From positions 2,604,001-2,668,000 of the forward strand of contig NC_060025.1 in assembly GCF_021134715.1 (NCBI RefSeq): a stretch of DNA of 64,000 nt. Reading direction: 5' to 3'. The position numbers and the translations under genes were made by a program. The notes beneath the pieces are model-generated. The model was not told the origin of the DNA. It did not search any database and was given only the letters and a program-made list of their open reading frames with translations. This DNA comes from Daphnia pulex (lineage: Eukaryota > Arthropoda > Branchiopoda > Diplostraca > Daphniidae). Position 1 is the first letter of the stretch; each line of letters begins with the position of its first letter. Positions 28,141 to 37,118 of the stretch are shown here, in pieces.

Positions 28141-28645
28141 TTAGCGTAAGCAATTTAGTTATTTTTTAGTTGTTGTCATCTTATTTAATTGATCCAGGTT
28201 TTTTGAAAAAACTTTTTAGTAAAATTTGTAACAGTTTAGTGTGATCCCAAAAGATTATTTAGTTAGCACCTCCAAAAATACTTTGAGGTCCGGAATTGTT
28301 TTTTAGGACAAGTCAAAATGCTGTTAGCATACAATAGTGGCTGGTGTATAATTCCACGTTAAGTTCATAAATATATGCACACTGCTGCACATCCATAAAA
28401 ATTTAGATAAAACGTTTCATATCACAAAAAAAAAAGATAAAAAAATCGGTGGGAGTACGGGGCCAATAGAATAGACCTATGCCTGATAGAGATACGCAGT
28501 TGTCTGCAAACTATTTCAGTTTTATTTGCTGTGAGGAAATGAGAGCTACGGCTTGAACATTAGTTCCTTCCCAGATCTGTTGTTATTCAGTTGTTCAAAA
28601 GTTGCTGTTGAGTGCCAGCTGTAGCAAGGCGGCTATTGTTTCAAA
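28141..28645. other. Spacer before the M28B pair
   Basis: AT-rich, with a poly-A run near 28427-28436. The last 80 bp are probably the 5' UTR of the next gene. No other feature seen. Confidence 0.5.
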
Positions 28646-31600
28646 ATGAATAACAAAGCAATCGCCTTGTTGTTGATTTCAACGGCAGCTATATTTTTCG
28701 TTTTCGGTAATACTGGACTGATTTAAATTGTTATCTTAAAAGGAAAAAATTGTAGTAAAATTGTTTTATTTATTTTACAGGTGCTCTCATCGGATTCTAT
28801 GTTATCGAAGAAAATAATAAAGTTCCCGCTGTGCTGGACGTCAAATCTTTACTGATTGATGAAATTTCGGCTGATAAAATCAGTGAAAACCTCAAGTATT
28901 ACATGACAACATTTGGATTTTAATTATCAGTAATGTAAATTATCTAACTGGTCATCTTAACAGACATTTGACTAGCGTTCCGCATGTGGCTGGAACAGCC
29001 CAGGATTTATTGCAAGCTGAATGGGTTAGAGATAGTTTCCTCGAAGCAGGATTGGATGAAGCTGAAACGGTTCCTTACGACGTGTTACTCTCCTATCCAC
29101 GACCTGGAGTGATCAATACAGTCGAGTTAATCGATGACAAGAATCAAGTTAATTTCACCACAGCTGGTCGGCAACCAGCACTTGGTACACCACAAAATTC
29201 CTACGGCGAAGTCTTTGCGAATTTCAATGCGTACTCAGGAAAGGGCGTTGCCCAAGTAAGTTTATCTATTCGATTCAAACGTTTTTATTATTAAGTATAG
29301 ACTGCTGTTATTAATGTTTGGTTTATTTGTTAAAAGGGAAATATAGTTTATGCTTACTTTGGGCGAGATGCCGATTATGAAGAACTACAAAGTCGAGGGG
29401 TAAACGTAACTGGACACATCGTCCTAGTGCGTTACGGAGCAATTTTCCGCGGATCAAAGGTCAGTATTTGGAATAACTTTTTTCAAAAATTTGATGCGAT
29501 AACAATTTTTATGGTTATTAGGTGGCGATTGCTGCAAGGTGGGGTGCAATTGGAGTGATCCTATTTAGCGACCCTATAGATAAAGCCGTAGAAGGTCGTA
29601 ATTTCACCTTTCCAGATAGTTGGTGGCTGCCAGGCATGGGAGTGGAAAGCGGCTCTCTTTATGTTGTTGACGGCGATCCTTTGACTCCTGCCTACCCTGC
29701 CATTGGTAGGAAAACTCCCATTGAAGATTAAAAGGCTAATATGCTAACCTTTGTCTCATTCAAACGCAGAGAGTGCATTTCGTTTGAAAGAAGAAGACCA
29801 GGCAAACCTGCCCAGGATTCCAGTCCAACCGATCGGCTATGACGAAGCCGAGATATTTCTTCGTAGCATTTCTCCTGAGAATCCACCTCCAGCCGCGTGG
29901 GTTGGTAAATTAGATGCGCCATACAACCTTGGTCCAACACCGCTCAACCCCGGTTGGAACGTCAGGATTAACGTCAGCACCGATAACGAGATGAGGAGAA
30001 CTTATAACACTATAGGAATCTTGCGCGGATCTGTGGAAGACGGTAAATCACGGAATCGAAATGGAATGAAAGGATATCATTAATAATGTTGGATATTTGT
30101 AGATCGTTATGTCCTTTTGGGCAATCATCGAGATGCCTGGACATTTGGTGCCTTGGATCCATCGAGCGGAACGGCTTCCATGATCGAAGTGGTCCGAGCT
30201 TTAGGGCAAATTAAGAAGAATAAAGGTATGCATTATCCCTGTAACAGAAACGTCGATTTCTTTAAATTCAATTTCTTACTGGTTTGTGTAGAATGGCGAC
30301 CAAGAAGGACTATGGTGTTTTGCAGTTGGGGTGCCGAGGAATATGGTTTGATTGGATCCTACGAGTGGACGCAACAATTTGCCAAAGTATTGAGCCAGCG
30401 AGCGGTGGCTTACCTGAATGTGGATGTCGCTGTCGGTGGTAAGGAAGAAAACGCAAACAAAAATTTTACCGGATAAGAATACTTATAAATACTTAAATTT
30501 TCAATTTTCAGGAAATCAAACGTTTCGAGGTTCAGCTTATCCCATGTTGAAACAACTTCTCATTGATTCTTCCAAGCTCGTCCCTAATCCTAATCCAGCT
30601 GAAGTGGCAGATGGCAGAGAAACTGTTTTTCAAACCTGGGTAAAATATCAGCCAGATGCAAACAACCCTGGAAATCCTTCGTAAGAAAATTGAATTGATC
30701 TCTAATTTTCTTTTTAGATTTCGTTTTTTTTTAAATAACTAATAATGAGGTAACTTTTCGACAGAGTTGGTAACATGGGCGGTGGTAGTGATTTTGCGCC
30801 GTTCGCTTATGTCGTTGGAACTCCAACCACAGATTTCGGTTACACGGTAATACATATTTTAATGACCCAAACGTTAATATGTTTCTGTTCTTGACCTTTT
30901 TCTTTCTATTAGGCTCCCAATAGTTATCCAACTTACCATACAATGTATGATAACTATCAGTTGGCCAGTGAGATTGTAGATCGTGGCTTTGTCCACCACC
31001 AGGCTGTGGCGAGAATGTGGGCAATTGCAGCCACCGAACTAGCCGACGCTGTTGTAATACCTTTTGATATCAATTCTTATGCCAGCTTTCTAAACGACTC
31101 GCTGACATCTTTAGAAAAGAAATACGACCAACAGCTACAGCAAAATCAAGCCACTTTCAGTTGAGAACTTTCTATTTTTTATTTTTTTTTTTTGTTTTAG
31201 TTTCACGTAAAACTTTTAAAAAATTTGGTTTATAGAATACTTCCGTGCTTCCGTCGACTATTTCAGTGAATCAACTAAGAATTTCACGGAAACAACCCTG
31301 AAAAATATAAATATGGATGACATTTTAACAGTCAGGCAGGTTAATGACAGACTCACCCAACTGGAGCGTTTCTTCATCGATCCAAAAGGATTACCAGATC
31401 GTCCCGAAACAAAGTTTGCTACATTCTAATAGATTTAAATTTTAAATAAGAACTTGAATTTTTTATGATTTCCGTTACCTTAGTCACATCGTTTTCTCGG
31501 TAAGCGCTAACAACGCTTACGGATCTGACACGTTCGCCGGACTAGTCGATTTGCTCCTCGAAGTGGGCAACAAAACGGAAAGTCAGGACCCAGTTACCTG

Positions 31601-31682
31601 GAACAAGATTCGCCAACATTTGTCAGTTATCGCATTCTTGATTGGTGAAGCTGCTCGTTCGCTAAGCGAAAACTTGTGGTAA
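28646..31682 (+). CDS. N-acetylated-alpha-linked acidic dipeptidase / glutamate carboxypeptidase II-like (M28B), active-type
   Basis: About a dozen exons join with small introns into a type II membrane protein. A short cytosolic MNNK leads into a signal anchor ([21 protein letters not shown]), a stalk, a PA domain ([26 protein letters not shown]) and the M28 zinc peptidase domain, followed by the transferrin-receptor-like dimerisation region ending [14 protein letters not shown]. The co-catalytic zinc site is complete: His in LGNHRDAW, Asp in ALDPSSG, the catalytic/ligand pair GluGlu in WGAEEYG (30336-30341), Asp in LNVDVAVGG, and His in YPTYHTMYD (30937-30939). The family removes C-terminal Glu (N-acetylaspartylglutamate, folyl-polyglutamate) or acts more broadly on peptides at the cell surface. 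The paralogue at 32406 follows in tandem. Confidence 0.9.
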
Positions 31683-32405
31683 CTTGTTTTATTTCTCCAA
31701 TTCGACTAAAATTCCCAACTCCTGATAATCGTGTAATTGCATGCATGTTTAAATTTACCTTTGAACTCTTTTTTTTTCCGTCATTGGTTACATTATTTTT
31801 GTTTATTTTGAATTTTTCTTGACATTGTCCTCGCTAGTGCGGTATTAGCTCGTTTTGACAGGGTGAAACACGGTGTATAATTGGTTGAGCTTGGTTGAAT
31901 TAATCTTTCTTGAACGATCGATTATTTTACGAAAGTGACTTCCGGTATTTTAAATTTGAATTGCAAATACTGTCACAGTACGCTTTGAGAATTCTTTGAT
32001 TCGTTCACAGTAACCCGTGTTTCCAAGGTGAAAGTTGTTTAACCTTGGGGCCTGGAAAATTTGACTCGTGATACTTCCTATAGCTTATTAACGATGTAAG
32101 CTTGACGAAATACCTTGGGTTTTGCCACAACTTTGTTTTCTTATTTTTGTCGAATCATCGATGGCGTCTCATTCTGAACCACGTCTCTGGCCAATCGGAC
32201 ATCAACTTCACATTTCTTAATTGGGAACTTTTTGAAAACAACGTAAATACTTATTAGAAAGGAGAGCACGCACGACTCCCGTTGGTGACACGAACGTGAT
32301 CGCGCATTGGAAAACTATCTGTTTAAGTGGACAAATATAAAAAAAGCGTGATGGGAGGTAAAGTGTTTTAACCTAGTTCAGTGTCGTACTACAGAACCGT
32401 TCAAG
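31683..32405. other. Spacer between the M28B paralogues
   Basis: No open frame of note. The final stretch before 32406 is probably promoter and 5' UTR. Confidence 0.5.
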
Positions 32406-35400
32406 ATGTGGTCGACTCAAGACGTGTCGGAAACTAAAACAATGCTGGATAAAAACAAAAAATCGGGATATTGGATTGTGGCCGTTGCCATCATCTTGTG
32501 CTTCGCTACAGGTAAGTTTATTAATGCTCGCTCTTTTTGTTGCCAAATTACACCGTATTGACTGAATTCCCCTTTAACTCGATCCCAATACGTCTGAAAA
32601 AGGAATTTTGATTGGCCGGTATGGAACAACCTCAGTGGCTGACTACCACAATTTCGACGTTAGGAATTTGGTAATTGACGAAATCTCTGCAGATGAAATC
32701 GACTCCAATCTGAGGTATGTACTATATGAGCGAATACTTTTAACAACCAAGTTGAGGTGCATGACAATGCTTTTCTATTCCTAACAGATATTTGACCAGC
32801 ACGCCTCATGTGGCTGGAACAGTCCAGGATTTATTGCAAGCCGAATGGATGAGAGATCGTTTCCTGGAAGCAGGATTGGACGAAGCTAAAACTATTCCTT
32901 ACGACGTGTTGCTCTCTTACCCGCGTGTTGGAGTGATGAATAAGGTGTCGCTAATCGACGAACAAGGCAGAATTAATTACACAACAGCAGGTCGTCAACC
33001 GCCCCTTGGTTCACCAGAAGAATTTTCCGATGACATTTTGCATAATTTTAATGCTTTCTCGGCTAATGGAGTCGTTGAGGTGCCTAACGAACTGCTTTGG
33101 ATTAATTTATCTTTGATTCATAATTTTGATTGCGTTTACTTTGGATTATTAGGGAAATGTTGTCTACGTCCATTACGGACGCAAGAAGGACTATGAATAC
33201 TTGCTATCAAGAGGTATTAATGTCTCTGGTCATATTGCCCTTATCCGACTAGGAGCGATCTTTCGAGGATCAAAGGTAATAAGAAATTTGAAATGCATGA
33301 TGTCAAAATGTTAAATTTTCTTTTATTTAATATGTTTAGGTGGATTTAGCTGAAAGATACGGCGCTATCGGAGTAATTCTGTTTTCGGATCGCCTAGAGA
33401 AGACCAGTCAGAATCGCAATAATACTTATCCCGATAGCTGGTGGATGCCAGGAACAGGAGCTGAATATGGTCACGTCGGACGCTTGAGGGGCGGAGACTT
33501 GTTGACCCCTTTCTATCCTGCTATAGGTAACAATGCAGTCCAACTAATTTAACAAAAGTATTTTACTTATACACCTCTATTCGTATGGCAGAGAGCGCTT
33601 TCAGGATCAAAGAAGAAAATCACCCTGGCTTGCCTAAGATTCCTGTACAGGCGATAGGTTATGAAGAGGCTGAAGTCATTCTCCGAAACATTTCACCGGA
33701 AAACAGCGCTCCTACTAAATGGATTGGCAAAATGGATGCGCCGTATTCTCTTGGTCCTAGTCTGCGTAATCCTGGTTGGAGAGTAAGGCTGGATGTCAGC
33801 ACAGTCAACGAAAGGAGGACTACATTCAACACAATCGGCATTTTACGAGGATCAGTCGAAGATGGTATTGAAATCCTGGTACACATTTTAAAACGTATGC
33901 TCATTTATTTACTTAATTAGATCGGTATGTTCTTTTGGGAAATCATCGAGATGCCTGGACTTTTGGGGCCCTGGATCCGTCTAGTGGCACTGCTTCTATG
34001 ATCGAGATTGCCCGAGTATTCGGAAAAATGAAACGCGACCAAAGTATTGCGATAGTAGTACCAAATAAAAATCGTTTTGAATTTTATAATTTTCATTTTT
34101 GAACAATACAGATTGGCGACCTAGGCGAACAATTGTCTTTTGCAGTTGGGGCGCTCATGAATACGGACTTGTAGGGTCCTACGAATGGACCCAACAACAT
34201 GCAACCGTTCTGGGCCAACGAGCCGTAGCGTATCTTAATGTAGATACCGCCGTCAGTGGTGAGTCAAAGTGAACAAAAAATCTAACAAACTCTAGTTTTA
34301 CCCGGCTTTGATTAAAACAGGTAATCGTACTCTCTTTGGCAACGCTTTTCCTACTCTGAAACAGCTCCTAATCGACACGGCCAAGCTTATACCTAATCCG
34401 AGTGTGCTTGAAATAGAATCCGGCCATAAAACGGTCTTTGATACCTGGCTGGCCCAATCTCGAGATCAGGATCATGTTGACCAACCAATGTATAGTATAC
34501 ATTTTAAATATTAATAGTATATTTGATGTAGTACTATCATTCACTTTTGATGTTAGGGTGGGGCATCTAGGTGGCGGCAGTGACTTTGAAGGATTTTCTT
34601 ATGTCATTGGCATTCCCGCAGCAGATTTTGGTTACATGGTACAAAAAATAGTTTGATAAACATACTATGCTCAAAACTAATGATCTAATTTTTTTTTCGT
34701 ATAGAAAAATGGCGTTTATCCAACGCAATATTCTCTGTATGATAGTTACCATTTGGCAAGTAATATTGTCGATCGCGGATTTGTTCATCACCAAGCTGTT
34801 GCACGAATGTGGGCTGTGGCGGCTGTTACTCTTTCAGATTCTGTCATCCTTCCGTTTGACGTTCTAGCTTATGCATCCTATCTGAATCATTCACTAAGTT
34901 TGCTTAAAACGAAATATGGACCGATACTACAACAGAACGGTGTTTCACTAAGTATTGATTATAAAGTATAATTATGATTGCCTTTCACGTTTTAATTTTT
35001 ACTCTTTATAAAGAACATGTGCGAGTGTCGGTTGATCATTTCATATTCTCCGTAAAACATTTCAGCGAAAATGAGCTTAAGAACGTCGATCAATCTAACA
35101 TTTTTGCCGTGCGACGAGTTAATGATAAACTCATGTATTTGGAACGTTTCTTCATTGACTCCAAAGGACTTCCGGATCATCCTGAAACTAAGTGAGAGCG
35201 TTAAAAATTTAAGATGAAGAAAATTTCATGACATTGTGTGTTAATTTAATATTTTTAGTCACGTCGTATTTTCGACAAGCAGCAGCGACTCCCACAACTT
35301 TAACACATTTGCTGGGTTGGTTGATCTTATCGTTCAGGTGGAAAACAAGACAGAATCAAACGATCCAGAGATATGGAGCAAAATTCGCCACCATCTTTCT

Positions 35401-35454
35401 GTTATTGCATTTTTAATTGGCGAGGCAGGCCGATCACTCAACGGAGATTTTTAG
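32406..35454 (+). CDS. M28B glutamate carboxypeptidase-like paralogue, predicted catalytically dead
   Basis: The exon layout matches the upstream gene. All exons are open and splice in phase: a type II anchor ([16 protein letters not shown]), stalk, PA domain, M28 domain and dimerisation domain ending GRSLNGDF. The first two ligands are kept ([15 protein letters not shown]), and so is Asp in LNVDTAVSG. However, the catalytic Glu of the EE pair is His (WGAHEYG, codon CAT at 34156-34158), and the last zinc His is Tyr within YPTQYSLYD (TAT at 34729-34731). In GCPII these two residues are the general base and a zinc ligand, so peptidase activity should be lost while the fold and dimerisation may persist, as in the transferrin receptor. 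An intact frame over about 730 codons argues for selection rather than decay. Confidence 0.88.
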
Positions 35455-36426
35455 ATTATGATCTTGTGATCCTGCAGGATTAAGCGCAAATGCACAATAC
35501 AAAATTAGTCTGACGAAATTGTATTACATATTCCTTTTTAACTTTATCCCAATGAATAAACAGTAAAGAAATGTTGTTTTTCTTTTATTTGTGTGGATTG
35601 TGAATTAATTTAATTTAATTATGATGTGATTGATTGAATTCTAATTAAATTCACTTGACAACAACGTCTGCTTCTCTGATATTATTTTCGTGAAAATTTT
35701 GAAAGGTTTGTTACATAATATTATAGTTCGTTCCGTTTCCATGGTAGAAGAGAAGTGAGATAACTGCAATATTGGTTGGATTTTTAATATTTTAAATCTA
35801 AAATACCAAACAAAACGTTCTTAAATTTCGGGGAAATTCCGAATACAAAATGCGTCAGTGCTGTGGTGTGGTTGAACATGTGAGTGGATGTGCAACATGC
35901 TGTGAGGAACTCTGTGAATATGTGTGAGTTTATTTATTTGCTGGCTTATTTTGCATATCATATTTATTGTTTACAAAGTCTTGGCATTTGAACTAAAGAG
36001 GTTGAACACGAAGGATGCTTCAACAAGTACAATAGTATACAGTGGAAAACAGATACTTCAGCAGCACTTGCCTATAATCGTGCTGTGATGTTTGTTGAAC
36101 ACATGGAAATGGTAGTCTAGTAACTTAATAATTCTAAATCAGTTTGCACTTGCTGCAATTGGTTCTCTTGATTTCCTCGCTAAAGTATGAATTGAAAATA
36201 AGTGCTTATATGTTTGGCGAGTTTGTTATGTTTCAATACCTTGTAAGTTGCCAATATTCCCCATTTTATACATACATTTATTTATAATAATGTCAAATTG
36301 CACTTCCTGCCCTCTACTTAACCATTACCAACACAAAATACTTCTTCTTAATATGCATGCATTATGACGAAGGAACTCTGGTTGATTAAACTTTAAATTT
36401 TTTGGGACATATATCTATATATTAGA
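35455..36426. other. Spacer with one possible micro-ORF
   Basis: Apart from a 25-codon Cys-rich frame at 35850-35927, described separately, nothing is recognised. AATAAA lies at about 35555 and probably ends the upstream M28B gene. Confidence 0.5.
35850..35927 (+). CDS. Possible Cys-rich micropeptide
   Basis: A 25-residue frame, MRQCCGVVEHVSGCATCCEE.., contains six Cys. A GT/gtgagt donor overlaps its last codons; splicing to the acaaag acceptor near 35978 would end translation after three further residues (28 aa). It has no signal peptide. It could equally be a non-coding first exon. Confidence 0.2.
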   Translation: MRQCCGVVEHVSGCATCCEELCEYV

Positions 36427-37118
36427 TCAACGTCTCGACGGATTTGGTCTTTTCGTGACGGCTTCATTCATCGCTCGAAGTCCCTTCTTCCACGCCTCCT
36501 TTGTTTCATCAGTGAATCCTTTCCCCAGTTCTTCTTCCAACACTCCCATTAGGGTCACTCCCAGAAGCTGTTTATCAAGACAGTGTTAATTTTCCTGTTC
36601 ACCAAAGTAGGTATACCAAAATTATCACATTATACCTTAAGATCTTCATGATGATATTTTCCTTTTGCCTTAGCGATGAACGGACAATTTTTAGGGTTTT
36701 TCCCAAGGTGTTCAACGTATGAATTGAGCCCAGATACGCAATTCTGAGCTTGAGCGAGAAAGTCTTCATTCGTCGGAAGCTTCATGTGGTCTACTTCCGC
36801 AAAAGCTGGAAACATTTTCTGTGCCTCAGGCTTCAATTCAAAGTAACTAGATTACAGAAAATATTTTATCAATCTTACACTAATCGCATTTGTTTCTTTC
36901 ACTTACCGTAGGAATGTCTTGGGACCGATGTTACCATTCTTTTTGGCAGTATTCCATGTGGAGCGGATCGTGGCCTCATCCCTTTCGTTGAGAAAATTCT
37001 CCAAGATCCTCTGGCTCTCCGACTTTGTCGACGGATCTCTTTGACCGGATGAACTCGCCTGGGAGAATGACAGGTAGGTGCTTAGAACAATAGCGGAGAT
37101 TTTCCATATGTGTACCAA
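36427..37118 (-). CDS. Secreted single-domain globin
   Basis: Exons 36907-37118, 36636-36846 and 36427-36567 join in phase to 187 residues; intron positions interrupt helices B and G as in many globins. Residues 1-22 are a signal peptide (MVHIWKISAIVLSTYLSFSQ..), as in Daphnia extracellular haemoglobins, but here only one globin domain follows. Landmarks: A-helix Trp55 (IRSTWNTA), YFELKPEAQKMFPAF with CD1 Phe86, F..QA..CV with Gln103 at distal E7 and Val108 at E11, and an H helix KEAWKKGLRAM. The F helix reads FIAKAKGKYHH: the usual proximal F8 His position falls on Lys132, with His only at 136/137. Heme binding may therefore be altered or absent, unless the alignment shifts. The start was chosen for the signal peptide in frame with the globin. 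Confidence 0.8.

Follow-up and report, generated by a model that had tools for sequence, protein, structure and literature searches.

A GCPII-like gene of Daphnia pulex with an altered peptidase site, probably a non-catalytic neighbour of a complete-site paralogue

Two tandem M28B genes and their paralogues

The window analysed here is a stretch of 64,000 nucleotides of Daphnia pulex (contig NC_060025.1, positions 2,604,001 to 2,668,000). It carries on its forward strand two tandem genes of the M28B family, hereafter A and B. Gene B occupies positions 32406-35454, with its ATG at 32406 and its stop codon ending at 35454. The GT-AG splice model inferred from the sequence gives 13 exons and 744 amino acids without any internal stop, and the introns, all of the GT-AG type, measure 56-91 nt. 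A preliminary description of this DNA had proposed an intact frame between the same two positions, and these coordinates prove to be exact.

28646-31682, forward strand: gene A, tandem paralogue with a complete site, 13 exons, 730 amino acids (splice model, residue table)
32406-32511, 32603-32714, 32788-33079, 33153-33275 and 33340-33526, forward strand: exons 1-5 of gene B (splice model)
33592-33864, 33921-34043, 34112-34258, 34321-34489 and 34557-34638, forward strand: exons 6-10 of gene B (splice model)
34705-34951, 35014-35191 and 35259-35454, forward strand: exons 11-13 of gene B (splice model)
32406-32616, forward strand: N-terminal tail (about 21 amino acids) and transmembrane anchor (about residues 22-40) of B, type II, spanning intron 1 (by eye; aligned with the N terminus of human GCPII)
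35555-35560, forward strand: AATAAA, possible poly(A) signal about 100 nt past the stop codon of B (from the sequence)

Frame damage at the junction of exons 11 and 12 of B was considered and rejected: the donor at 34951 restores the phase as in gene A, whereas a donor at 34953 breaks the frame. Exon 11 ends at 34951 and, with 247 nt, has the same length as exon 11 of A. Alternative exons carrying a complete site inside gene B were also rejected, since introns of the size given above are too short to hide them.

By its domains, B is a member of M28B. Indeed, the Pfam domains PA (42.7 bits), Peptidase_M28 (68.5 bits) and TFR_dimer (74.9 bits) are found in one protein, each above its cut-off. 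Inspection by eye and alignment with GCPII bear out the earlier claim of a membrane-anchored protein, and a short N-terminal anchor is seen by eye in A as well as in B. The tail preceding the hydrophobic stretch (32406-32470 in B) is, also by eye, about 21 amino acids long in B vs. about 4 in A. Between the stop codon of A and position 32300 (31683-32300), there is no AATAAA or ATTAAA, vs. one at 35555 after B.

Genes A and B have the same exon layout and the same intron phases, and a BLAST alignment of their products (730 columns, 960 bits) shows 62% identity. Three queries, the profiles of M28 and TFR_dimer and the protein sequence of A, were run against the genome (133.19 Mb, 13 contigs). 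Only the best candidates were scored, and the number of M28B genes is that of the genes found: at least four, A, B, C, and D, have PA, Peptidase_M28, and TFR_dimer, all three domains being present in each of the four proteins. Gene C lies on the same contig as A and B, about 0.7 Mb away, and gene D on contig 3. Two of the eight regions with an M28 match (L039 and L040) were modelled and the six others were left out; in the profile search, the remaining M28 matches of the genome have no adjoining TFR_dimer match. In a tree of 13 rows, which takes in 8 of 69 bacterial homologues and leaves out the transferrin receptors (TfR), A and B group together (support 100/100) and the four genes of the genome form one clade (100/99), apart from human GCPII.

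Active-site residues of gene B

Homologous positions are given in GCPII numbering. In the part of PMC10794815 considered here, E424 is described as critical for catalysis, acting as a proton shuttle, H377, D387, E425, D453, and H553 as zinc-binding residues, and R210, N257, Y552, K699, and Y700 as residues of substrate recognition. In genes A, C, and D, all six metal or catalytic residues (H377, D387, E424, E425, D453, and H553) are kept. At positions 424, 552, 553, 700, and 257, B has H, Q, Y, H, and H, respectively, where A, C, and D have E, Y, H, Y, and S/T. The motifs of B are WGAHEYG and YPTQYS, vs. WGAEEYG and YPTYHT in A. An alignment slip at YPTQYS was rejected, the alignment being gap-free from YPT on. 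The codons concerned are the following (from the residue table unless otherwise stated).

33472-33474, forward strand: codon of H256, at the position of GCPII N257 (of the 68 bacterial homologues aligned there, 67 have Ser and one has Thr)
33944-33946, forward strand: codon of H373, kept Zn2 ligand (GCPII H377)
33974-33976, forward strand: codon of D383, kept bridging ligand (GCPII D387)
34156-34158, forward strand: codon CAT of H421, which replaces the general-base Glu (GCPII E424)
34159-34161, forward strand: codon of E422, kept Zn1 ligand (GCPII E425)
34243-34245, forward strand: codon of D450, kept Zn2 ligand (GCPII D453)
34726-34731, forward strand: codons CAA TAT of Q546-Y547, which replace Tyr-His (GCPII Y552, substrate pocket, and H553, Zn1 ligand)
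35293-35295, forward strand: codon CAC of H692, which replaces GCPII Y700 (substrate pocket)

Measured against what an active peptidase carries, B has no general-base Glu (His421) and an incomplete set of five ligands (Tyr547 for H553). Among the substrate-recognition residues named above, R210 alone is kept; position 699 varies across the paralogues, being Ala, Ser, Gly, and Lys in A, B, C, and D. Relative to the paralogues, E424H and Y552Q each imply at least two base changes, and the four active-site codons of B at least six. The preliminary description had recognized the replacements in WGAHEYG and YPTQYS as well as two other kept ligand regions (H373/D383 and D450), in agreement with the residue table. 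However, it understated the extent of the change, since the Gln at Y552 and the His at 700 and 257 were missed. Its "dismantled zinc site" is right insofar as the site is damaged but too strong a term, as B keeps four of the five metal ligands, that is, the full Zn2 triad (H377, D387, and D453) and two of the three Zn1 ligands.

Other features of GCPII are unevenly retained. The residues T269, Y272, E433, and E436 are those which we take to form its calcium site; three of them are present in B (T269, Y272, and E433), and the fourth, E436, corresponds to Gln in both A and B. None of the S1 arginines of GCPII (463, 534, and 536) is found in B or in D; R463 is present in A and R536 in C.

For the estimation of conservation, 69 bacterial M28B loci, mostly from Acidobacteria by title, were fetched by patterns containing GNH[RM]D[AS]WT and VQ[PA]IGY[DE]E. 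These rows are independent neither of each other nor of the columns H377 and P296, whose conservation is partly due to the selection of the sample because the fetch patterns include both. With gapped rows set aside, position 424 is Glu in 69/69 rows, 552 is Tyr in 68/68, 553 is His in 68/68, 700 is Tyr in 65/66, 210 is Arg in 68/68, and 257 is Ser or Thr in 68/68. A column was considered near-universal when it is conserved in 95% or more of the bacterial rows as well as in all four remaining animal sequences. Gene B alone breaks 11 of 71 such columns (Y205, P231, D233, P267, P296, L323, E424, Y552, H553, R684, and Y700), vs. 1 of 61 for A (11 vs. 1, binomial p 0.006). In the corresponding counts, gene C, like A, breaks 1 of 61, gene D 4 of 64, and human GCPII 5 of 65. 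Relatives in viral contigs were also looked for, and none was found among 89 candidate stretches.

Four retained metal ligands out of five would also be expected of a modified enzyme. B might then be a re-tooled enzyme, using H421 or Y547 as a Zn1 ligand, a histidine as the base, and a His-lined pocket for another substrate or metal. Three pocket positions of B are now His (257, 424, and 700), and the protein has 25 His vs. 9 in A; of the 25, 12 lie at positions that are His-free in A, C, D, and human GCPII. However, the His count alone says little, because gene C is also His-rich (21) and has a complete site. Moreover, His at 424 or Tyr at 553 occurs in none of the 69 bacterial sequences (68 aligned at 553) nor of the four animal ones (A, C, D, and human GCPII). 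According to an excerpt of PMC7522609, M28 enzymes commonly bind one zinc at ligand sites 2, 3, and 5 and the second at sites 1, 2, and 4, and the glutaminyl cyclases are one-zinc members. With our own assignment of these sites to GCPII (1, H377; 2, D387; 3, E425; 4, D453; 5, H553), site 5 is lost and sites 1-4 are kept in B; therefore, Zn2 has its full triad, and two of the three ligands of Zn1 remain. By this assignment, the zinc position formed by sites 2, 3, and 5 is the one that is damaged in B. The glutaminyl cyclases are active with their zinc at that position, whereas the metal of B would sit at the other one. Altogether, we regard a re-tooled enzyme as rather unlikely.

Constraint on gene B

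Between A and B, dN is 0.271 and dS 2.89, giving an omega of 0.094 with a saturated dS. In our own codon model with separate branch rates, omega is 0.103 on branch A and 0.097 on branch B (difference p 0.93), and omega = 1 is rejected on branch B (p 6e-5), these values being rough because the deeper branches are saturated in dS. Both the pairwise value and that of branch B, which the preliminary description had proposed as a check, are far below 1. At the amino-acid level, B evolves at most a little faster than A: changes specific to B number 50 vs. 32 for A (p 0.06), and at positions that are five-way invariant the numbers are 20 vs. 15 (p 0.50).

When human GCPII is included in the reference, active-site columns are enriched among the changes of B, with 4/10 changed vs. 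16/181 elsewhere (Fisher p 0.012); in the same count, A, C, and D each have 0/6 active-site changes. With the three paralogues only as the reference, the figures are 4/12 vs. 44/285 and the enrichment is not significant (p 0.11). An even spread of all the non-synonymous changes estimated for B would readily place four hits among the ten site columns (P 0.37, a rough value that assumes 72% non-synonymous sites). The main weight of the case therefore rests on the broken near-universal positions taken together with the strong overall constraint, and not on the enrichment test alone.

A recent loss of function would make B an early pseudogene with its frame still intact. The lesions do include the catalytic machinery, the branch of B in the tree is somewhat longer than that of A (0.35 vs. 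0.26), and B has lost seven conserved prolines vs. one in A, counted at positions common to the other three paralogues. However, 13 exons, GT-AG borders, and an open frame have been kept across a dS of 2.9, omega on B is no different from that on A, and the base changes in the four active-site codons need time. Furthermore, were neutral decay to account for just the dN excess of B relative to A, P for hits in four of the ten site columns would be about 0.0006, again a rough value under the assumption of 72% non-synonymous sites. We consider such an early pseudogene improbable. As expected of a pseudoenzyme, B combines the loss of catalytic residues with constraint elsewhere in the protein, the constraint being estimated from paralogues of one genome. 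Hence, judged from its sequence, B looks like a maintained pseudo-peptidase, not a decaying pseudogene.

A possible binding or partner role and its known counterparts

The explanation that we favour, with a probability of about two in three, is that B is a membrane-anchored GCPII-like ectodomain which would have lost peptide hydrolysis and would be kept by selection for a non-catalytic binding or partner role. The protein would adopt the usual dimeric fold, and Zn2 would probably remain occupied by a single metal ion. Because the general base is gone, standard hydrolysis would be impossible in B, with no activation of water by the standard route. The remodelled pocket has gained three histidines and is most likely a binding site for a ligand; alternatively, B may pair with its neighbour A in a dimer, as the catalytically inactive partner. 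The roles suggested earlier for B (receptor, scaffold, or dominant partner in a heterodimer) are conjectural, as no feature directly indicates a ligand or an association with A. A bolder version, which we put forward only tentatively, is that selection turned the pocket into a His-rich site for a metal or a ligand, with H256, H421, and H692 beside the Zn2 triad. B could then be an arthropod receptor or a metal-sensing partner of A, and this peptidase family would have given rise, independently and for the second time, to a non-enzymatic surface protein. In the first 30 residues of B, no [DE]xxxL[LI] motif was found, the only motif being a Y-x-x-hydrophobic at the membrane edge. As for A, a complete site is no proof of activity, because, in the part of PMC9768917 considered, no substrate was identified for recombinant M28B proteins of trematodes whose sites are complete.

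Among known structures, GCPII/III give long alignments with B, over residues 22-740 for PDB 9hlw (E 1.8e-142) and 44-739 for PDB 3fec (E 3.6e-152). The likeness includes the four metal ligands, R210, and the three calcium-site residues, and the difference consists in the absence of E424 and H553 and the replacement of Y552, Y700, and N257. TfR1 chains match B less well (E about 5e-48), with 167 bits vs. 479 bits for GCPII. Human NAALADase L2 presumably lacks catalytic residues. It is presented as an M28B paralogue in the part of PMC10794815 considered, where transferrin receptors 1 and 2 also appear as non-enzymatic members of the same family; NAALADase L2 is set beside B by description only.

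In this family, the non-catalytic surface protein that we propose has a counterpart, as the transferrin receptor is a well-known case of a peptidase fold turned receptor. B is not orthologous to vertebrate TfR, since it is the sister of A in a tree without TfR and is closer to GCPII in its match scores. An excerpt of PMC11094094 reports TfR orthologues from vertebrates only. The loss in B, a sister of the complete-site gene A, is thus separate from that of TfR, and the independence from the transferrin receptor path that had been suggested earlier holds within what this excerpt reports.

The weakest alternative is that B is an arthropod analogue of TfR devoted to the uptake of an iron carrier. 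We take RGD to be the transferrin-binding motif of TfR, and RGD and the iron-responsive element (IRE) presumably mark TfR. The RGD motif is absent from the B protein, and no IRE was found in 28300-36500 by an Rfam scan (E up to 5), in which an sroH match (E 4.3), far below its own gathering score, was put down to chance. B does belong to the same family with the same domain set, and NAALAD2 has been proposed as a transferrin-receptor-like iron protein in sponges and clam, but these proposals, as far as the excerpts of PMC7034838 and PMC12896564 go, argue from homology, IRE prediction, and expression, and we consider the analogy very unlikely for B.

Among the titles of the matches listed in open-licence literature on Daphnia, M28B/GCPII, the transferrin receptor, and pseudoenzymes, there is no account of gene B, and the combination of Daphnia and pseudoenzyme gave no match in that literature. 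A "glutamate carboxypeptidase" of the proteomics study PMC2674882 was rejected as the product of B, the sole such match in the part of the study considered being a cytosolic dipeptidase entry. If the non-catalytic reading of B is true, the gene would represent a separate case, arranged in tandem, in an invertebrate, and invertebrates are reported to be without transferrin receptors. The complete-site twin A adjoining it would let the change from peptidase to binding protein be tested side by side. It would also mean that arthropod annotations of the "NAALAD2/GCPII" type can include non-enzymes.

Finally, some observations concern the structure of the paralogues. Gene C has a single 998-nt exon (L039:3681-4678) in place of exons 3-7 of A and B, and a 24-nt exon (L039:5820-5843) coding for DIGSYPLY, directly before the zinc-ligand His. 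In exon 3, the first 145 nt (28964-29108 in A, 32788-32932 in B) are 84% identical between A and B vs. 64% in the remainder of the exon. Synonymous differences number 11/38 in residues 73-120 of B vs. 247/400 elsewhere (p 1e-4, for a stretch picked after a sliding table). This high-identity stretch is perhaps a gene-conversion tract between A and B.
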